Shown here in pieces: positions 39,197 through 56,921 of a DNA stretch of 64,000 nt (position 1 is its first letter; the number at the start of each line of letters is the position of its first letter). The notes below the pieces were generated by a model. The model worked only from the letters and a program-made list of their open reading frames with translations, did not search any database and had not been told where the DNA came from. The position numbers and the translations under genes were made by a program. The stretch is from a virus. The DNA lies in the IMG/VR virus record IMGVR_UViG_3300027734_000048, positions 1-64,000 of that record, one strand, 5' to 3'.

Positions 39197-39640
39197 TTAG
39201 TTAGGTATTCCAATAATTATAATATTGACATCAACTGACATATCACCAGTTGTACCAAACCTTACAATTCCATCAACCTTAGAGGTTGTTATATTTTTTA
39301 AAACTACTGATACATTCTTACCAGCATCTGTTCCACCAGTGTTAACTGGGGTTGCAGTTGCAATGGGTGCATACTTAAAGTCTGTTGGGAAGTCATATGA
39401 AAATGCTACTTCTGTTCCTGCTTGTCGTGTTGAACTATTTACTACATTTACATACCCGCCAATAATTCTAGCCTCGGAAGCCTTAACGCTTTGCTTTCCA
39501 ACACCAGGGGTATCTACTGTTACATATTTATATGTTGCTGGAGATATTTGTGATGATAAATCATTAACAGTATTTGCTAATTGATAAATATAAGCAACAT
39601 CTAGTGGTTGCCCTCTTTCAGGTAAAGGTAATTTTGCCAT
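39197..39640 (-). CDS. Probable minor tail/baseplate protein
   Basis: The 147-residue product starts with MAKLPLPERGQPLDVAYIYQLANTV, a short coiled coil, and then a beta-rich domain (YKYVTVDTPGV, AFSYDFPTDFKYAPIATATPV). This is like small tail-tip proteins of siphophages. It is the last virion gene in this direction and has its own extended -10 (39650-39655). Confidence 0.6.
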   Translation of the reverse strand: MAKLPLPERGQPLDVAYIYQLANTVNDLSSQISPATYKYVTVDTPGVGKQSVKASEARIIGGYVNVVNSSTRQAGTEVAFSYDFPTDFKYAPIATATPVNTGGTDAGKNVSVVLKNITTSKVDGIVRFGTTGDMSVDVNIIIIGIPN

Positions 39641-46058: not shown

Positions 46059-46712
46059 CTATGCCTCTTCCAGGGTTACTGAGATATTCCAAAAATCATG
46101 ATTACTTCCGCCACGCTTTTGTACGCTATAAGAAAAATCACTAAAAAACATTTCAACCAATTGATTATATTGTCCAAGATGTCCATAGTCTGCATCATCT
46201 TTTCCAAAATTTGAATATTTATCATATGCTAGATATACCCAAAAAGATCCCTGATGGTTTTCATACCAATCAAGTAGTTCAACTCCACCAGCACCACCAT
46301 CAGAAGTATATTCTAAAGAGTTCTTTTCTTTTACTAATGGCTTTCCATTTGATGGATTAAACTCTGGAGCAAGTGCAAAAGATCTAGAAGGAAGCATACT
46401 CCAACTAGTAGAAATTGTCAACTTGTCTGCAACATGATAAGAACGCATTCTGCCATTAATCATTCTTTCACGCTTTTCAATTCTGGTTGGTTTAAAATCA
46501 ATCGGCTGTCTATTATCATCTGAAAGAATTAAAAATTGATTAAATGTGGATTCGTCTGTTTCTGATCCAGTTGTTGATCCAACCTCATAGCCATTTGGAA
46601 CATAAACACCATTAACTAGTGTGCCAGAGTTTTCTGACCATAACATTGCTTGTGGTCTTTGATACTTTCTTCTACCAGACATATAGGCAGCAGCATTTGG
46701 GTTAGTAGCCAT
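46059..46712 (-). CDS. Minor tail protein (distal tail candidate)
   Basis: The 217-residue product follows the tape measure gene, the place of the distal tail protein in siphophages. It is beta-rich with KPTRIEKRERMINGRMRSYHVADKLTISTSW and ends with FFSDFSYSVQKRGG, DFWNISVTLEEA, a layout known in actinobacteriophage minor tail proteins. Its ATG overlaps the tape measure stop by one base. Confidence 0.7.
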   Translation of the reverse strand: MATNPNAAAYMSGRRKYQRPQAMLWSENSGTLVNGVYVPNGYEVGSTTGSETDESTFNQFLILSDDNRQPIDFKPTRIEKRERMINGRMRSYHVADKLTISTSWSMLPSRSFALAPEFNPSNGKPLVKEKNSLEYTSDGGAGGVELLDWYENHQGSFWVYLAYDKYSNFGKDDADYGHLGQYNQLVEMFFSDFSYSVQKRGGSNHDFWNISVTLEEA

Positions 46713-49700
46713 TATAGTTTATTACCTCTTAATCTCATAGAATCTACTTGTTTAATCTTAGTCATTACTGTATTTGCAATATCATTTGCATTAGCATCAG
46801 ACTTAACATTTACTGTCAACTCATAATTATACACTGATCCAAGTTGTTGTGAACCGTTATTAATGGCTTTCATGGTTCCCGTGCCATAATTATCAACAGC
46901 ATATTTACTCATAACAAATTCCCCTGGTGTAAGCATTGCTGGTACTGTATCTGTACCCTTAGCAAATCCACCTATAGCAAAATATTTAGGAACAAATCCA
47001 CCAGAAGAATATCCACCTCTTCTTCCACCAGGAAACATTGCAGCATCTGCAGCAACCCTTGCAGCCTGTGCTTTTTCTTGAGCAGCAACCTGTGCTTGAT
47101 ATGCCAATCCTTGTCCAGTCCATCTAGCAGTCATGGCTGCATCTGCAGCAGACATTCCAGTTCCAACTAAAGAAGATGCCATTGCGTTAGCAACAACTGA
47201 TGGAGTTAAACCTGCTTTTACTGCATCTGAAACAGCAGTATTAACATCATCTGTAGTTTTTGCAAGAGCAAAGGCAACCATTGCGTTTGCTTGATTTGCT
47301 GCTGCATCTGCCTCTGGTGTTGTTGTAGTTTTAGGTTTAGTTACAGGAGGCGGAGTAAAATTATTTTGCTGTGTTGTAACACTTCCTGGAACTCCTGCAG
47401 CATACTGCTGAATCTTTGATAGAATTGAAGCCCACATATTATTAATTGCTGTTGCAGATGTTAATAGTGCACCAAATGCTGTATCTAGATTCTTTGATGC
47501 AAGTGCAGATGCATCAATCTTTGCAAATGTCAAATCCCATTCTCCACGAGTTTGTCCCATTACCTTTAATGAAGCAACCTGCTTATCTATTTGATTTTGC
47601 AGAACAATATTTTCATATGTCAGTGCATCTATGTTTGTTTGAATTGGACGAATCTTTGTATTTTCAATATTATAAATTTCATCTTCTTTTGTTTTAATTT
47701 TAGCAAGTTCTGCATTTTGAAGTTGTTGCAAGTTATAAATTTCATCTTGCTTTGCCTTAATGTCTGCAACAATTTTAAGTCTTGCTGGATTATTTTCCAT
47801 TGCATAAAGTTTTTGAGCATTTTGATATTGTTGTTCTTGAATTTGTATTTCTGTCAAGCCAGACTGTGGACCCTTTAGTCTTCCTAAAGCATTTTGTCGT
47901 GATTGTTCAAGGGCATCCATTTGTGATGTAGCATATTGATCAGCATTGGCCTGTCTCATTTCTTGTGCAGCCTGTGCTGCTGCAGCAATATCACCCTGAG
48001 TCAATGCATCAGCAAGACCAAGTTGTCTTCCCTGTTGAGCAATTATCTGATCATTAACAGCCTTGACCTCATTAAGGTTTTTAACTTGTTCATCATAAGA
48101 TTTATTAACAGCATCTGCTTGATGAGAAATAATAGCAAGATCATTTCCATAAATTGTGTTTTGATCTTGAATTGCCTGCATTGCACGGTTGCCAAATATT
48201 GGACTTGTTTCAAGTTGTCTATCTAATGATTCTACTTGAGTATTAAGGGCCTCTATTGGTCTTGTATATGCAATCTCAATGCTTCTTTGTGCATCTGCTA
48301 TTGATTGATTAATGTCAGCAACTTGTTTTTGGAATGGAAGAAGTTGTGCTTGATAATCTGCAATTTTTTGATTATTTGAATCTAGTTGTTGTCCAAGTGG
48401 TCCATTCTTAATCAATGCCTCTTGTACAGAGAACATTTCATTTACTAGTTGTCTTCCTTCTTCTGCAGCACCTGCAAAATCTCCCATTGCAAGTTTTACA
48501 CGAATATCAATCGATTTCTTTTCTGCGATTGAATCAATATAATCTTTTATGTCTCCTGCTTCAATCTTTCCATCTTTAAGGTCTTCAATTAAGTACTTTG
48601 CAATATCAGGATCTGACAAAGCCTCATTAATTTGATCAGCACTGTATCCTGCCTCTTTCATAGATTTTGCTAGTCCTGGGGCATTCTTTGAAATAGCAAA
48701 GTCTGAGTTTGCCTGTCTTGCTTTTGTTAGTGCATTAAGTCTTGAAGTTGCATCAGATGCTGCCTGAGCGTCTGCAATGAATTTCTTCATTTCTTCAGAA
48801 CCCTTTTTACCAACCGCACCTGATGCAATACCTGCTGCTATTGCAGAATCTTCTACAGTTTTTAATGCATCGGATGTGCTCATTCCAGAAGCAATAAGAA
48901 TTTTAAATGCTGCATCTTGATTTTTTGTTGTTTCTAAAACTTCTTTTTGTGCAACATTAAATTCACCGATTACGGCTTCACGGTATGTTTGCATTACCGC
49001 TTGACCTTCTTTTGTTAATCCAGTAATGTTTGCCTTTGTTTTTTCTTTACCCTTTTCATAGGTAAACATATTCTTTCCCTTTGGCAATGATGCAAACTTT
49101 TTAAAGTCATCTGCACTCATTCCAGAAATCATATCTCTAAATTCTTTTGGAACACCAAGTTTAATCATTCTTTGTTGCAAACCATCAAATAGTGTAAACA
49201 TCTTTGAAACATCTTTTTGAGCCTGCTTTCCACTAAATGCTGCAATCATAGATTTAAGTGGGGTTGTTGCATCGAAGGCTCCGTCACGAACATTTTTAAT
49301 TCTCATTGCAAGTGAGTCAAGGAAGTCTAGTGGATTTGCTCCTGTTGAATTTGTATTTGAAGCAGGTCCTGGCTTGTTGCTTGGAATTGATGTTGGAACT
49401 TTGTTTGGCAATAGATCATTTGCAATCATTCCAGTAACGGCAGAGTCGGTTACTACTGATGGTATAGATTTATTTTTTCTGTACTGTGCAATTTCTGATT
49501 TTCCGATTGTTTTATAAAGTTCTATATATGTAAGAACAACACTCTTTTGAATTTTTGGATCTTTATCTTTCCACTTATCCCAATCACTTATTAAAGCCGT
49601 CATGTCTGGCATATCTGGATTTGCCTTAACTATGTCTTCTATTACAGTAAGAGTTACAGGCTCAGTTCCAATTTTACTATCTACGCTATCTAATAGTGCA

Positions 49701-52700
49701 CTTAGTTTTTCTAGGTTTCCCTTTGTTTTTAAGAATACTTCTAAGTCTAACTCTTTACCATCAAGTTGCATTAAAGAACTTAAGGTATTCATATTATTTT
49801 CAAATGTTGCTGCACCTTCTTTTGATGTCATCTTTACAAAAATATCTTTTGCAGTTTCTTCATCAAAATTAGAAAGTATTGTAAGCAGTTGCTGAACCTT
49901 GCCAGGATCTTGCATTTTAAGTGCTGCTGTAATTTGTGTATACATGCCATTTTCATCTTTGCCAAATATATTTAATAAGTTTGTTGCAGAAACAGTATCT
50001 AGTTGACCGCCAGAAACCAATGTGTTAATTAAAACTTCTATCTTTTCTGATTTAAGTCCCTTGGTTTGTGAAAGCAACGCTTTGGCAAGTGGGGCTGCAT
50101 CTCCAGTATATTTTGCAGAAACAGCATTTCTTGATGCAGAAATAACTGCATTCTTATTCATACCTATCTGACCAGGAAGTTTACCCTTTAATGATTTATC
50201 AAATAAGTCTGAAGTTTGTTTTAAACTTTTTGCTGTAAATGAGTTTAATTTTGCATCATCTTTTGCTTGTCGTTTTTTAACATCTTCTATCTTTCCATCT
50301 ATTACTAATTGTTTTGCTTTATCTGCAGTTGCTAGTTTTTGTGCTTCAAGTTTGCGTATTTCATCATCATACATTTTCTTTTGTGCATCTCTTTGAGCCT
50401 GTATAATGGTTAGATTTTGAGACTGAAGTGCCTGTGCTGCAGCAAAAGAATCTGTAGAGGCAGAAGATGCACTACCAGTTCTTTGAGCATTTGTTGCAGC
50501 CGTTGTCATTGCATCTGTAATTTCATTTTGCGTATTAATTATTTTAATTCTAATTGTAAGCGGATCAACAAGTAAGTTTTGGCCATCTGGTCCAACGAGA
50601 TTTGTTATTTCACCTTGAATCTTTGTTCCAATTGTCATGTTGCCAAGATCTAAGCCAATTTGTCTTGCTACGCTATATGCTTGTTCAGCAGTTAATATTC
50701 CATCAGAAATATAAGCAGAAAGTTGCAATGCTAGTTTTTTAGATGCTTGATCTCCACCTGCTGCAAGATCTTTTACAAAAGATTCTTTTATAGACTTTCC
50801 AACATCTGATTGGAAGAAATCTGTTCCAAATTGACTCTTTCCTCTTTCAAATATCTTTGTATATCTATCAGCACTGCCTTCTTGTCTCTTTCTTGAATAA
50901 AGTTCTGAGGCTCCAACCTTACCTGTTATTTCACCAATTTTCTTCATCTTATCTGTTGTTGCAGATATAGAATTAATATAATCAACTTGCTTCTTAACTG
51001 TAGCATCAAAGTGTTTCTTCATTAGCCATACAGATCCCGCTGCTGCTGCCACTCCAAGTGCAAGACCCTGTGGACCGCTAAGACCAGCAAGCATTGGTGC
51101 AAATGATGCAACCATAGATCCAGTTCCAAGTGCTGCTGTGACTTGTGTTGGTGCTCCAGCCATACCAGAAACCATTGCAGCAGTACCAAGTGCTCCTGCA
51201 ACCTTACCAGAATATTGCCCAACTGCTTCTCTACGCATTCCCCTTGCCTGCTGAACTTCTAATTTTCTTTGTGCTTTAAGGTTTGCAGCATTTGTTTTTT
51301 GTTGTTCTGGTGTAAGTGGTCCAATAAACCCTATATCTCCAGCAACAAGATCTGACTGAGATGTTCCTGGGTAGTTCCCTGCTGCTGCTGCATCCTGTGC
51401 ATTTCTAACTGCTTGCTCTTTTGCAATAATCTCTTGTTGTCTTAAATCATTTAGTCTTTGCTCTTGTGCAGCAGACTCAGCAACATTTACACTCGTAGTT
51501 TTTGTTTGTCTTGCAATTGCATCATTTAATTTTGTAGTAGTTACTAACTTTCCAGTTAATTTTCTATAGTGTCTGTCTATAGACTTTTGTCTTTGACGCA
51601 TTTCAGGATCTTCTTTCATAATCCTGTATTTTTCAAGATTTGCAGTATCAATATTTGATGCAGCGTTTGCAAGTCTATCTGATTGTGAAGCCACACCTGC
51701 TTCTCTAGACTTCATGCCTTCAATAAGTCCATCTCCAATATCTTGTCCAAGTTTTCTAGTTCTCTTTGAAGGTGAAGCAGTTTGTGCTATTTGTTCTGCT
51801 TTGGTTAAACTCTTTTCAACACTTTCTGGAAGATCATCTATAGTTCCAAGAACCTCTGATGCAGTTCTTGCTTCAACATTTCCATATTTTGCATTACTTG
51901 CTTTTGGACCAAGAGTTCCAGCACCTGCTTTTGCAAGGCGATCATTAATTGGTCCAAGATCTTCTTGCTTAATAGATGTTCTAAGTGCAGTGATAGTTCT
52001 TTTTGCTGTTTCAATTACAGCCTTAAAATCAGGAATAAGGGAGTCTATGTCTTTTCTAACTTCTGACTCTAACTTTAAGAATACATCATCTGTGAAAGGC
52101 TCTGGAATCTTTTTCCCTGCATTTTCTTGATTCCATGCCTGAATTTTTTGAAGCAATGCCTTGTCATAAATTTCTGCCTGGGCATGAATCTTGTCAAAAT
52201 CTGCACCGACAAGTTCTGTCATGGTCTTCCATTTTTCAGCACCAGTCTTTGCAAACTCTTCTTCAAATGCAGAGCCTACAGTTTTTCCATTTTTCTTTTC
52301 AAAATTCTTTTGATTTGGGCTTGCCATTCCTCTATTGACAGACTGCTTCATGTCAAATCCAAATGCATCTGCAACTCTTACATCTGGTGCTTGTCTTCCA
52401 GTTTCTGCATAATAGGCTTTAACAATATCCATCTGCTTTTGGATCTTTGGAGAAACTTTTAAACCACTTGCTGTTCCAATGTCAACTTTATGTGTATCTC
52501 CTACGTGTGCAAAAGATCCGCCTTGACCTTCATCAAACTTCTTAAACCATCTCCCCATGATGCTTGGTCCACCATCAGCACCTGGAGCCTTTCCTATTTC
52601 ATTTAATCCTTCTTGTGTAAGTTTTCCAGTTTTTGCTTTAACTTCTGCAAGTAATTCTTCAAAGTTTTTAAGGACTGCAGCACGAATTTCTTCCATTGTT

Positions 52701-55117
52701 TTTTCTGTGCCCATACCAGTAAGTTCTGCATAACGCTTAAGGTTTGCTTCATTTAATTTTGCAATTCTGTCATATTCTTTTTGTAAAAATCCTGGTAAAT
52801 CTTTAGAAGATGATACTGATTCTGCTTGTGATGTCGGCCCATTATCAAGACCAGACCTTCCCATAATTAGGTTATGGACTCCACGATAACTTGCACCACT
52901 TCTTGAATTATCTGCAGTGCCAGCCATGTACTTTCTAACACTTCCATTTTGCAATGCTGCAACAGTCTCTGGGTTATCTTTAACTGTTTGCTTTGTTAAA
53001 ACAACTTCACCAGGAGTTAGTACTGCTGGAACTGTATCCTTATTTCCAGTACCTGGTACTACTCCACCTGATGACATTCTAATTCCAGATACCGCTCCCT
53101 TAGCACCTGGGGCTGCATTAAATAGTCCTGGACTTGAGGCAGCAAGTGCTCTAGCCTGTGATCCTGCATTTGCATATGCTGCTGCTAGTGCATTAACAGA
53201 TCCTGCCTCAACATTAAATGTATCAATAAGTGTTTTGTGAGACATATGCAAAGCATTTGTTTCTGTAAGATTTTCAATTTCCTGTTGTGTTAAATAATCA
53301 AATCCTCCACCAAGAACTGCATTTTGTCCATTAAGTTTTGCCATGCCACCACGAAGCATTGCAAAGAATTTAATTAAGTTTGCAAGACCGTTTGCAAGCA
53401 AACCAAATGTCATCAGTGCAACTGGTGCTAAACCACCAACAACTCCAATAACAACCGCAATGGCTTTTTTAGTGCCATCACTAAAGTTATTAAATCTTTC
53501 TAAAATTTTTCCAAAGAAATTAACAATTGGAGTTAATGCTTCTAGGAATGCCTTACCAACTGGAACTAACTCTTGCTTTAATTGTTCAATTGATTTTTGA
53601 AATTTGACTCCAACTGCATTTTCTACTTTGCCTAATTCTCGCTCAGATAGAATTGCTAGTTCTTCAACTGATGCCCCTGCTAATCCAAGTGCTCTTGCTG
53701 CTTGTGAAGAATCTTTTGTAACATTTTGAAAGAGTGTTGACAAACGAGCAAACTGGAACTTACCAAATAGTTGCTCAATTGCTCTTGCACGGTTAAGTGG
53801 ATCTAATGTATCAAGTGCTCTAGCAAATCCTACAACAGTTCCTTTTAGATCTCCCTTGTTTGCTTCAACAAGTCCTTTAATATTTATTCCAAGTCCCGCA
53901 AGAAATTCACTAGCCTTTTTTGAAGGATTGATCATAGAAGCAAGACCAGACTTGAGAGCATTAGCACCTTCTGATGCATTAATTCCGCCCTCTTTCATTG
54001 CAGTCATAAAGAATGCAAGATCTTCTACACTTCCACCAAGTTGTTTAATAACTGGTCCAGCCTTTGGAACTGCAATAGTTAAGTCTTCAATAGAAAGTAC
54101 TGTTTGGTTTTCTACTGCGTTAAGAAAGTTAATTTTTTGTGCAAGATCTGTTGCAGCAATACCAAAAGCATTTTGCAAAGAAATTGTTGTCTCAAGTGCT
54201 TGCTGTTGTTCAACTTGACCAAGTACAGAAAGTTTTGTTGCTGCAATCACCTGCTGATTTAGATCATTTCCTGTAAGACCCATTGCTGCTGCTTTGGCTG
54301 CCATTTCAACTGTGTCTTTTACTGCTATTCCGTATTTTGTAAATTCTTTGCCAAGTCTTTGAATATCTTGAACAGCCTTATTGGTTGCATCAGATGTTGT
54401 CGTCATATCACCATAGACTCTTGTAAACTTAACAACCGCCTCTTCCATATCACGGAATGTCTTCATTGCAACAGAACCAAGCATTGTAAGTGGAATTGTC
54501 AAACCAACCATTAACTGGCGACCTGCCCACTGTGTATTTTTACCAAAATTTAAAAGTTGGGTAGAGCCTTGTTTAATTAACTGATTAAGAAGTTGTTGTC
54601 TTTGTGCAGCCATCTGGACTCTAGTTGCATAGTCTGCATATCGTCCATTGGTCATTTCAAGATGTTTTGGAACTACCTTCAAAACTTTTACAAGTTCACC
54701 GTTAGCACTTGTTAGTTGTATATATTGAGACTGAAGTGCCTTTACTCTATCTCTACGAGCACGGTTAATTATGTCTCTTTCAGCAGTAAAAGCACGACCC
54801 AAAACCTTTGTATTTGCAGTTGCTGCTGCAGCGGTGTACCTAAAGTACTCACGCATGCTGAGTTGATTTTTTTCAAGTGCTGTTGTGAATGCACTTGTGC
54901 TTGTTGCTACTGTTTTTTGTGATGCAACAAATTTACCAGTAGAGTTGATTGCCTGAACTAATTGATCATTAAGACCTTTTTGAGCATTTGCTGCTGCAAC
55001 ATTGCCCTGAGTTAGTGACTGATTGAATCGACTCAGACCAGCCTGTAATTGACGTAAACTAGCAAGTGCCTCTGTAGTATCAAAGACAATGCCAATATTA
55101 GCGTTTACATCAGACAA
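46712..55117 (-). CDS. Tape measure protein
   Basis: The 2801-residue product is the largest in the window. Residues about 190-520 are the TP901/PhageMin_Tail region (LMVGLTIPLTMLGSVAMKTFRDMEEAVVKF, then a long Ala-rich helix bundle). Hydrophobic segments follow (AIAVVIGVVGGLAPVALMTFGLLANGL near 560-590 and another near 1365). Two copies of the DTVPAxLTPGE motif occur, near residue 702 and near the C-terminus (about 2725), linked to basic or Gly-rich peptides. At about 0.15 nm per residue it predicts a tail of roughly 400 nm. It sets tail length and is ejected with the DNA. Confidence 0.93.
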   Translation of the reverse strand: MSDVNANIGIVFDTTEALASLRQLQAGLSRFNQSLTQGNVAAANAQKGLNDQLVQAINSTGKFVASQKTVATSTSAFTTALEKNQLSMREYFRYTAAAATANTKVLGRAFTAERDIINRARRDRVKALQSQYIQLTSANGELVKVLKVVPKHLEMTNGRYADYATRVQMAAQRQQLLNQLIKQGSTQLLNFGKNTQWAGRQLMVGLTIPLTMLGSVAMKTFRDMEEAVVKFTRVYGDMTTTSDATNKAVQDIQRLGKEFTKYGIAVKDTVEMAAKAAAMGLTGNDLNQQVIAATKLSVLGQVEQQQALETTISLQNAFGIAATDLAQKINFLNAVENQTVLSIEDLTIAVPKAGPVIKQLGGSVEDLAFFMTAMKEGGINASEGANALKSGLASMINPSKKASEFLAGLGINIKGLVEANKGDLKGTVVGFARALDTLDPLNRARAIEQLFGKFQFARLSTLFQNVTKDSSQAARALGLAGASVEELAILSERELGKVENAVGVKFQKSIEQLKQELVPVGKAFLEALTPIVNFFGKILERFNNFSDGTKKAIAVVIGVVGGLAPVALMTFGLLANGLANLIKFFAMLRGGMAKLNGQNAVLGGGFDYLTQQEIENLTETNALHMSHKTLIDTFNVEAGSVNALAAAYANAGSQARALAASSPGLFNAAPGAKGAVSGIRMSSGGVVPGTGNKDTVPAVLTPGEVVLTKQTVKDNPETVAALQNGSVRKYMAGTADNSRSGASYRGVHNLIMGRSGLDNGPTSQAESVSSSKDLPGFLQKEYDRIAKLNEANLKRYAELTGMGTEKTMEEIRAAVLKNFEELLAEVKAKTGKLTQEGLNEIGKAPGADGGPSIMGRWFKKFDEGQGGSFAHVGDTHKVDIGTASGLKVSPKIQKQMDIVKAYYAETGRQAPDVRVADAFGFDMKQSVNRGMASPNQKNFEKKNGKTVGSAFEEEFAKTGAEKWKTMTELVGADFDKIHAQAEIYDKALLQKIQAWNQENAGKKIPEPFTDDVFLKLESEVRKDIDSLIPDFKAVIETAKRTITALRTSIKQEDLGPINDRLAKAGAGTLGPKASNAKYGNVEARTASEVLGTIDDLPESVEKSLTKAEQIAQTASPSKRTRKLGQDIGDGLIEGMKSREAGVASQSDRLANAASNIDTANLEKYRIMKEDPEMRQRQKSIDRHYRKLTGKLVTTTKLNDAIARQTKTTSVNVAESAAQEQRLNDLRQQEIIAKEQAVRNAQDAAAAGNYPGTSQSDLVAGDIGFIGPLTPEQQKTNAANLKAQRKLEVQQARGMRREAVGQYSGKVAGALGTAAMVSGMAGAPTQVTAALGTGSMVASFAPMLAGLSGPQGLALGVAAAAGSVWLMKKHFDATVKKQVDYINSISATTDKMKKIGEITGKVGASELYSRKRQEGSADRYTKIFERGKSQFGTDFFQSDVGKSIKESFVKDLAAGGDQASKKLALQLSAYISDGILTAEQAYSVARQIGLDLGNMTIGTKIQGEITNLVGPDGQNLLVDPLTIRIKIINTQNEITDAMTTAATNAQRTGSASSASTDSFAAAQALQSQNLTIIQAQRDAQKKMYDDEIRKLEAQKLATADKAKQLVIDGKIEDVKKRQAKDDAKLNSFTAKSLKQTSDLFDKSLKGKLPGQIGMNKNAVISASRNAVSAKYTGDAAPLAKALLSQTKGLKSEKIEVLINTLVSGGQLDTVSATNLLNIFGKDENGMYTQITAALKMQDPGKVQQLLTILSNFDEETAKDIFVKMTSKEGAATFENNMNTLSSLMQLDGKELDLEVFLKTKGNLEKLSALLDSVDSKIGTEPVTLTVIEDIVKANPDMPDMTALISDWDKWKDKDPKIQKSVVLTYIELYKTIGKSEIAQYRKNKSIPSVVTDSAVTGMIANDLLPNKVPTSIPSNKPGPASNTNSTGANPLDFLDSLAMRIKNVRDGAFDATTPLKSMIAAFSGKQAQKDVSKMFTLFDGLQQRMIKLGVPKEFRDMISGMSADDFKKFASLPKGKNMFTYEKGKEKTKANITGLTKEGQAVMQTYREAVIGEFNVAQKEVLETTKNQDAAFKILIASGMSTSDALKTVEDSAIAAGIASGAVGKKGSEEMKKFIADAQAASDATSRLNALTKARQANSDFAISKNAPGLAKSMKEAGYSADQINEALSDPDIAKYLIEDLKDGKIEAGDIKDYIDSIAEKKSIDIRVKLAMGDFAGAAEEGRQLVNEMFSVQEALIKNGPLGQQLDSNNQKIADYQAQLLPFQKQVADINQSIADAQRSIEIAYTRPIEALNTQVESLDRQLETSPIFGNRAMQAIQDQNTIYGNDLAIISHQADAVNKSYDEQVKNLNEVKAVNDQIIAQQGRQLGLADALTQGDIAAAAQAAQEMRQANADQYATSQMDALEQSRQNALGRLKGPQSGLTEIQIQEQQYQNAQKLYAMENNPARLKIVADIKAKQDEIYNLQQLQNAELAKIKTKEDEIYNIENTKIRPIQTNIDALTYENIVLQNQIDKQVASLKVMGQTRGEWDLTFAKIDASALASKNLDTAFGALLTSATAINNMWASILSKIQQYAAGVPGSVTTQQNNFTPPPVTKPKTTTTPEADAAANQANAMVAFALAKTTDDVNTAVSDAVKAGLTPSVVANAMASSLVGTGMSAADAAMTARWTGQGLAYQAQVAAQEKAQAARVAADAAMFPGGRRGGYSSGGFVPKYFAIGGFAKGTDTVPAMLTPGEFVMSKYAVDNYGTGTMKAINNGSQQLGSVYNYELTVNVKSDANANDIANTVMTKIKQVDSMRLRGNKL

Positions 55118-55134
55118 TCATTACACCCTCTTTT

Positions 55135-55464
55135 TTATTTTGACATTTGACCAACGAGTGCTGTTGTATCTGAAAGTGAGAATCCAGATGCTGCATCGAT
55201 GATCTTGTAGACCGTTGGAAGGTCTAGGCTTTCTTCAAGTTTTTCTCTATCTTCTGCAAGATCTGGATAGAATTGCTTAAATGCAATTTGAACGCAGTCG
55301 AGCAGTAGATCCATTGACTTGTCATTATCATCCGCTACTTCTGTTAGACCAGTAAACTTCTTCATGAATGGTCGCAATAGTGAAATCTTTAGCGGTTTTA
55401 CTTCAAACTCTGTACCGTCAACAAGTCTTAACTTTTGAACAGTATTTTCTACATTGTCAGTCAT
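55135..55464 (-). CDS. Tail assembly chaperone, short form (G-like)
   Basis: The 109-residue product matches the first 100 residues of the next upstream protein: L-x-DG-x-E-x-x-x-PLKI-x-x-LR-x-FM-x-KF, then KQF-PD-x-A and the late L-x-T-x-YKI-x-D-x-x-x-G. It ends right there and has no C-terminal extension and no downstream open frame before the tape measure start. It is thus the short tail chaperone, made from its own gene. CGGAGGAAAA precedes the ATG. Confidence 0.82.
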   Translation of the reverse strand: MTDNVENTVQKLRLVDGTEFEVKPLKISLLRPFMKKFTGLTEVADDNDKSMDLLLDCVQIAFKQFYPDLAEDREKLEESLDLPTVYKIIDAASGFSLSDTTALVGQMSK

Positions 55465-55489
55465 TTTTCCTCCGTTAGGTTGATAGTTA

Positions 55490-55495
55490 ATTATA
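55490..55495 (-). promoter_or_regulatory. Extended -10 promoter for the short chaperone
   Basis: Read leftward, TGGTATAAT lies between the long chaperone's stop and the short chaperone's CGGAGG ribosome binding site, so the short form can be expressed independently. No clear -35 is seen. Confidence 0.5.
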
Positions 55496-55514
55496 CCATA
55501 GCAGGTATTATTTT

Positions 55515-56195
55515 TTAATCAATTCTTTCATATGTCAGGCCCATTCCAATGCCAAATCCTGCATTTGCTGCATTTTGTCCTTGAAGGGCAACTATATCAT
55601 TTGCATTGGCTGCTTTGCCTTTGCTAAACACTCTAGCCTTCATTTCTTCCCATTCGTTTGATTTATTGTTTTTATCTAAATCAACTCCCTGCATGGCTGC
55701 TAGAAATTTTTTATGCGTGTAGTCTTCTTCTCTTTTAACATTCAAGACTGCAGTAAGTTCTGGCATAGAGAGAGATTTTTCCAACTCGTTATAATCTTTC
55801 CATATGCCAAGAAGAAACACCTCTGATTCTAGTTGTGCTAAATCCAAATCATCCCAAGAAGATCCACTCTCTACTGCTTGTTTCTTTACTGGTTCTTCTG
55901 AGTCTTTGTCTATTTTTATACCAGCCGAAAAATCAAGTAGTTTATAGATTGTCTTTAAATCTACAAACTCCTCAAAACGATCAATGCTTGTTGCTATATC
56001 TGGCTTAAACTGTTTCATGCATTCCATAGCACAAATAGATAATGCCGTGATAGTTTCATAATCATTTTTGGCCTTTTTAACATCTTCAAATTTTTCCATA
56101 AAACGTCTTAGATATTTTATTTTTAATGGTGATATTTCTAACTCTTCACCATCTATTAAATATATATAGTTTATTTTATAAATTTCAGTAGCCAT
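55515..56195 (-). CDS. Tail assembly chaperone, long form (GT-like)
   Basis: The 226-residue product has an N-terminal half (1-110) homologous to the short chaperone downstream and a C-terminal extension with SWDDLDLAQLESEVFLLGIW, KDYNELEKSLSMPELTAVL, KFLAAMQGVDLDKN. This extension is of the kind added by a -1 frameshift to gpG in lambda-like phages (GT). Here it is an in-frame part of a separate full gene. Together they would load the tape measure for tail tube assembly. Its ATG lies six bases after TATACT. Confidence 0.8.
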   Translation of the reverse strand: MATEIYKINYIYLIDGEELEISPLKIKYLRRFMEKFEDVKKAKNDYETITALSICAMECMKQFKPDIATSIDRFEEFVDLKTIYKLLDFSAGIKIDKDSEEPVKKQAVESGSSWDDLDLAQLESEVFLLGIWKDYNELEKSLSMPELTAVLNVKREEDYTHKKFLAAMQGVDLDKNNKSNEWEEMKARVFSKGKAANANDIVALQGQNAANAGFGIGMGLTYERID

Positions 56196-56201
56196 CTATA
56201 T

Positions 56202-56207
56202 AGTATA
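56202..56207 (-). promoter_or_regulatory. Extended -10, probably leaderless, for the long chaperone
   Basis: Read leftward, TGGTATACT, then six bases (ATATAG), then ATG 56195, without a ribosome binding site. TTGAGC 19 bases upstream could be a weak -35, but it lies in the terminator stem. Confidence 0.5.
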
Positions 56208-56211
56208 CCAA

Positions 56212-56249
56212 AAACAAAATTGCCCCGCTCAAATTAATGAGAAGGGCAA
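56212..56249 (-). terminator. Rho-independent terminator after the tail tube gene
   Basis: On the leftward strand TTGCCCTTCTCA and TGAGCGGGGCAA form a 12-bp stem with an imperfect centre and a short TTAATT loop, followed by TTTTGTTTTT. It separates the tail tube gene, which must be made in many copies, from the chaperones. Confidence 0.82.
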
Positions 56250-56267: not shown

Positions 56268-56921
56268 TTAGACTGCTGCTGGAATTGTACGATCTACGAT
56301 CTTACCGTATGATGCATCATCATTTGGAAGAAGGCGGAAAGATACTTCAAACATTGTCGCTTCGTCACGCTTTGCTGATACTGTTACATTTTCGATTGAA
56401 AGTGCACGGTATGCAACATAAATACGTTCGATTGAAGATCCTGCTGCACAGTCACCTGTACCTGGACCAACTGCTACCAAACCACGCTCAACTGGGCATT
56501 CGCCTAGTTCGCCTGCAGAAAGGTTAAGTTCCATAGAACCTGTTGCAAGTCCTGTACCTGTTAGGTCAGACTTGTCTGTATCTTTTGCTGCTAATGCAAC
56601 AAGAAGATTTTCGAGAGTTGCCTCTGCGAATGTTGTGTTCAAGTTTACTTGCATGCCTTGCTTGTATAGTTTAGCAACGTCAAGCACCTGATCCACTGCA
56701 ACCTCACCAAAATCTGGCTGGAACTGTAGTTCCAAACCATTCATTGTGTAACCAACATTGCGGAAGTCATCTTCATTTGCTGTCAAAGACAGTGTATCTT
56801 TAAATGATACTCCATTTGCGTATGCTGGAAGGTCTGAGTCTTGAAGTTGTCCACCTTCATATGTGAAAAGTGCTGCTGCACCCACGATGATTTGTGAACT
56901 GTTACCTCTTGTATATGCCAT
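56268..56921 (-). CDS. Major tail tube protein
   Basis: The 217-residue product has a beta-rich fold with GQLQDSDLPAYANGVSFKDT, ELQFQPDFGEVAVDQVL, LNTTFAEATLENLLVALA and EVSFRLLPNDDASYGKI, the pattern of tail tube proteins of the lambda gpV/T5 group. Its place upstream of the chaperones and tape measure, and a terminator right after it, agree. ATG 56921 is chosen as GAGGTG lies seven bases upstream; the longer frame has no support. Confidence 0.75.
   Translation of the reverse strand: MAYTRGNSSQIIVGAAALFTYEGGQLQDSDLPAYANGVSFKDTLSLTANEDDFRNVGYTMNGLELQFQPDFGEVAVDQVLDVAKLYKQGMQVNLNTTFAEATLENLLVALAAKDTDKSDLTGTGLATGSMELNLSAGELGECPVERGLVAVGPGTGDCAAGSSIERIYVAYRALSIENVTVSAKRDEATMFEVSFRLLPNDDASYGKIVDRTIPAAV

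Follow-up and report, generated by a model that had tools for sequence, protein, structure and literature searches.

The window analysed here, a stretch of 64,000 nucleotides, comprises bases 1-64000 of the 116,566-base virus record IMGVR_UViG_3300027734_000048. In minus-strand order it carries portal, protease, capsid and head-tail genes, a major tail protein gene, two genes for proteins of 226 and 109 amino acids and a tape measure gene, with the head genes named by position and by Streptomyces relatives. The two small genes sit between the major tail protein and tape measure genes, as G and GT do in lambda-type systems, a place proper to tail assembly chaperones; we designate them as the putative chaperones GT (long) and short G. 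The locus contains the following features, with lineage counts referring to the relatives described below:

56268..56921, minus strand: major tail (tube) protein with an Ig-like domain (PHROG 2175, 2.9e-31), in the same place as annotated major tail proteins; upstream neighbour of GT
56210..56249, minus strand: hairpin with a T tract, resembling an intrinsic terminator, in the gap that separates GT from the major tail protein gene; terminator-like elements recur here in 71 of 73 lineages and in 0 shuffles
56202..56207, minus strand: TATACT -10 element, extended by TGG at 56208-56210, its 3' end lying 6 nt upstream of the GT ATG; the start is probably leaderless
55515..56195, minus strand: putative fused G-T tail assembly chaperone (gpGT-like), 226 aa; PHROG 10504 and PHROG 10474
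55490..55495, minus strand: TATAAT -10 element of short G, extended (TATGGTATAAT), 25 nt before the ATG
55469..55473, minus strand: GGAGG Shine-Dalgarno site of short G; 71 of 74 lineages have a match of 5 nt or more
55135..55464, minus strand: short G, a putative tail assembly chaperone with a gene of its own (gpG-like; 109 aa); PHROG 10504 (1e-18); on average about 56% identical to G of near frameshift relatives
46712..55117, minus strand: tape measure protein, 2801 aa, assigned by position and length and annotated in Stanwilliamsviridae relatives; downstream neighbour of short G

GT is organized into a G domain (residues ~1-97), a linker (~98-111) and a T domain (~112-226). PHROG 10504 matches residues 1-108 (9e-18), while the match to PHROG 10474 covers residues 131-200 of GT only (1e-14) and is absent from short G. 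The T domain is also recognized by a model built from the frameshift T domains of Karimac and TunaTartare, and the dN/dS of GT is well below 1. An in-frame TAG lies immediately 5' of the GT ATG, so the start of the gene cannot lie further upstream. Residues 10-98 of short G match the N-terminal half of GT with 38% identity (E = 6e-18), and pairwise BLASTP of the two proteins gives E = 9e-20; overall the identity is 37-38%, with paralogy over the N-terminal 90 residues. A first-pass annotation had described the 226-residue form as a complete gene and the 109-residue form as a paralog of its N-terminal half; both descriptions are confirmed, the former by a minus-strand reading frame that holds G and T together and the latter by these alignments. 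Searches of Pfam returned no family for the chaperone proteins and a PDB sequence search found nothing. AlphaFold models of moderate confidence were obtained for GT (pLDDT 69) and short G (pLDDT 78). In a viral structure library the short G model matched a predicted viral tail assembly chaperone (E = 1e-6), and in the PDB its first and second ranks were both chains of the HK97 chaperone 2OB9, at weak similarity (TM 0.43/0.40, E about 1); the GT model matched nothing in the fold search. The short G model is consistent with a chaperone fold and does not prove it.

Tailed viruses usually make both chaperone versions by ribosome slippage on one gene, and this frameshifting is conserved across tailed phages although the sequence is not. 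As in lambda, the two forms encoded in the window have an N-terminal G domain in common, to which T is added in the long form. The long form is not made from the short gene by programmed -1 frameshifting, GT being one open frame. Its single canonical slip heptamer, TTTAAAG, lies at codon 78, and a -1 slip there would run into a stop 3 codons on; no heptamer is found at the G-T junction near residue 100, and short G contains no canonical heptamer at all. No T-like frame follows short G, the -1 and +1 frames past its stop running for 5 and 8 codons (measured on L005, a stand-in for the window that is identical in both proteins), in agreement with the initial claim that no open frame after the short gene could give an extension.

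Four scans of IMG/VR and one scan of genome contigs yielded about 300 related loci, a few of them cut before G or T, which were sorted by G and T models and, after removal of near copies at 85%, represent 74 fused and 20 frameshift lineages. The fused loci are mainly lake-derived. In all 257 of those with enough flank (eight that end within 170 bases of T are left out), G and T occupy one open frame and a second G lies downstream; together they comprise 182 distinct nucleotide sequences in 74 lineages. A further 36 loci carry T in the -1 frame, and none of them (0/36) has a second G. An assembly or sequencing artefact of a frameshifting gene might be suspected behind the in-frame fusion, the record being metagenome-derived. 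Such an artefact is refuted, and its probability next to nil, given the recurrence of the fusion in so many distinct sequences and lineages, the conserved linker, the low dN/dS and the constant presence of the second G. One fused GT (L071:4001-4528) is shorter by about 58 residues at the G-T boundary compared with L023, with the frame still open, representing a viral deletion or an assembly error.

Among named phages, the Stanwilliamsviridae of Streptomyces come closest. In TunaTartare, the annotation gives gp37 as a joined product from the gp36 start, and at the DNA level T lies in the -1 frame with CCCAAAT in phase. In Karimac, T is likewise in the -1 frame, without a perfect heptamer, and is annotated as a hypothetical protein. 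This T frame (gp59, L004:4587-4859) represents the frameshift extension of the chaperone and is annotated as a separate hypothetical protein in Karimac and many other Stanwilliamsviridae. Rhodococcus phage Francesca also has a joined frameshift, and five low-GC frameshift contigs (L241, L247, L255, L262 and L267) lie near the fused lineages. A further frameshift-type relative (L305, CAINGU010000031.1) resides in a 110-kb contig of a metagenome-assembled genome labelled as a cyanobacterium, which could be a phage contig or a binning error. In tblastn searches of 50,697 phage records, matches were confined to 127 Streptomyces phages plus 3 Rhodococcus phages (long query) or 3 Brevibacillus phages (short query), with one G place per isolate genome or record. 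The arrangement of the window was found in no cultured phage among these records, and identity was below 60% in every one of them.

The frameshift and fused groups differ in their slip heptamers. Heptamers, mostly CCCAAAY or GGGAAAC, are present in 16/20 frameshift lineages compared with 4.6 expected from synonymous shuffles, while at the fused junction they occur in 10/74 lineages compared with 8.3 expected, which is the chance rate. The central proposal of the first-pass annotation, two paralogous genes in place of a frameshift, is thus borne out. About one quarter of the distinct fused loci do carry heptamers, mostly A-rich and around codon 103, and the -1 frame closes a few codons further on, as would be required if GT slipped at the G-T junction and terminated in a dnaX-like manner to make some G-length product, the short gene then being an extra or specialised copy. 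Considering that these heptamers show no marked excess over shuffling, that those of the frameshift relatives do and that the window lacks a heptamer at its junction, we regard dnaX-like slippage as very improbable. The A-rich heptamers were also considered as slip-site remnants and rejected, since they occur at the chance rate. TTTAAAC/T motifs at the end of some short G genes were likewise dismissed: all heptamers there number 8, with 4.0 expected and up to 10 in shuffles, and these genes are not followed by a T-like frame.

The start regions of the two genes carry opposite signals. Each gene had been credited with its own -10-like promoter, and these elements are indeed present and conserved across lineages, as consensus matches. 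Upstream of the fused gene, the motif TGnTANNNT ends 5-9 nt before the start in 68/73 lineages (shuffled mean 0.6) and a Shine-Dalgarno match of at least 5 nt is found in 1/73. Since the -10 element is this close to the start and there is no Shine-Dalgarno site, the GT mRNA is probably leaderless. The 6-nt spacing between -10 and ATG in the window, the missing Shine-Dalgarno site and the terminator that precedes GT go beyond the original description. Leaderless mRNAs are common in Actinobacteria, and their poor translation is not universal. Short G has TGnTANNNT at 18-40 nt in 74/74 lineages, TATAAT in 73/74 and an upstream terminator in 0/74. Frameshift G genes show a leadered promoter in 18/20 lineages, a Shine-Dalgarno site in 18/20 and a leaderless start in 0/20. 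Where in-frame starts lay close together in short G and frameshift G, the one with the best Shine-Dalgarno match was picked, a choice that favours finding a site and has little effect on the promoter counts. The layouts of these starts indicate that short G kept the ancestral start region and that the start region of the fused gene is new. Few genes of the window have leaderless-type starts, the extended motif being found in 3/75 predicted genes, GT included. A second leaderless candidate is a 147-aa gene at 39197-39640 with an extended TATAAT 9 nt before its ATG and no clear Shine-Dalgarno site. In the relative L010, GT and short G are separated by an inserted cassette of ~1.2 kb (L010:4678-5902) that encodes two proteins of about 205 and 155 aa, and the short G promoter and Shine-Dalgarno site are intact.

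Codon usage points in the same direction. With adaptation measured against the local major tail protein, short G exceeds GT in 66/69 loci (p = 8e-13), and of the structural genes tested in the window none scores lower than GT (0.43), compared with 0.61 for short G. The suggestion that the ratio of the two forms is set by transcription and translation thereby gains indirect support, the conserved opposite upstream signals and the codon bias both suggesting lower GT expression. The ratio could also be set mainly after expression, by differences in stability or in tape measure binding, with the upstream differences incidental; that these differences are nearly invariant in 73-74 lineages and agree in direction with the codon bias makes this unlikely.

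The G-domain tree unites all fused copies in a single clade (98/85) and, once a distant Brevibacillus sequence is removed, all short G copies in another (98/78), with frameshift G basal. In the T tree, most frameshift lineages constitute a basal grade; the best tree does not unite fused T, a single clade being not rejected (AU p = 0.29), and placing frameshift G as one side of the G tree is also not rejected (p = 0.35). These trees rest on ~100 columns, so that support is limited and a reversal or second event would be compatible with them. Because all fused N-domains form one clade, a single origin is most likely, with a tandem duplication, one copy fusing G and T in frame and the other losing T. 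Such a single event would mean that the perfect association of fusion and second G amounts to one evolutionary replicate, retained by every descendant observed. In 73/73 lineages, near frameshift G resembles short G more than it does fused G (mean identity 0.58 compared with 0.42), and mean identity among lineages is 0.65 for short G and 0.54 for GT; judged by these identities, GT is the diverged copy and short G the conserved one. Paralogs can diverge, and the short copy might no longer be a general G chaperone and have taken on a new role, for example with another tail protein. Both identity comparisons place the divergence in GT instead, and the leader and Shine-Dalgarno layout of short G is that of frameshift G, so we consider a new role quite unlikely. 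Between the window (55135-56195) and L008, L010 and L011, GT shows a synonymous divergence of ~1.0-1.1 and its neighbour short G one of ~0.2, suggestive of strong constraint on the codons of short G or of local recombination there.

Taken together, we interpret the pair as a lambda-type set of tail assembly chaperones that has exchanged programmed -1 frameshifting for gene duplication and whose two forms have their ratio set by expression, a reading to which we assign a probability of roughly 0.84. An ancestor with a single frameshifting G/T gene would have undergone tandem duplication, after which the upstream copy became an in-frame G-T fusion and the downstream copy kept G and lost T. By homology and analogy with lambda, we infer that short G coats the tape measure protein and that the rarer GT also recruits the tail tube protein through T. 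GT expression would be kept low by terminator insulation, a near-leaderless mRNA, a usually weaker -10 element, the absence of a Shine-Dalgarno site and poorer codons. Short G would be expressed at a high level from a consensus extended -10 element and a leader with a Shine-Dalgarno site, using better codons, and should in addition be translated from GT transcripts that continue into it. When G and T are permanently fused in TP901-1, the particles are not infectious (PMC4493119); G must therefore come from elsewhere if GT is fused, and the paralog would supply it. It is likewise probable, if slightly less so, that a mainly lake-derived clade exchanged a highly conserved frameshift, apparently once, for duplication and complementary loss, with dosage fixed by a leaderless, terminator-insulated minor gene and a leadered major gene with a Shine-Dalgarno site.

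What frameshifting supplies is a fixed ratio between two proteins, seemingly reached here through promoters and translation starts. A clade without the frameshift, together with close relatives that keep it, represents a natural test of what frameshifting provides and a clear viral case of duplication with complementary loss. It also cautions that such genes may be joined or split in error when a frameshift is expected during annotation. In the literature searched, which included few subscription papers, no description of a G-T fusion with a G paralog was found, so an earlier publication is possible; within the same scope, the Microbacterium EA phages, some of which are reported to lack an evident frameshift (PMC7302621), were the only stated exception found for duplicated or frameshift-free chaperones. 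A survey lists 342 SEA-PHAGES genomes with two unjoined chaperone genes, with incomplete annotation suspected in many (PMC10885494).

Compared with known systems, the pair resembles lambda gpG/gpGT in having short and long forms with a common N-terminal domain, encoded between the major tail and tape measure genes. In lambda the G:GT ratio is about 30:1 (PMC5009743). The pair differs from the lambda system in consisting of two complete genes without a productive slip site, whose ratio is apparently set by promoter, leader and codon usage. The Stanwilliamsviridae (TunaTartare gp36/gp37, Karimac gp58 and its T frame) have homologous G and T domains (PHROG 10504 and PHROG 10474) and the same gene order, but possess one G, with T reached by -1 frameshift (at CCCAAAT in TunaTartare), and no second G. 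In the Microbacterium EA1 phage Hamlet, gp15 and gp16 are mutually unrelated and match the two halves of PHROG 18843, so that G-like and T-like proteins are apart, with neither a G-T fusion nor paralogy. TP901-1 gpGfsT is an in-frame G-T fusion like GT, but it is a laboratory mutant without a separate G, while the natural system described here has one.
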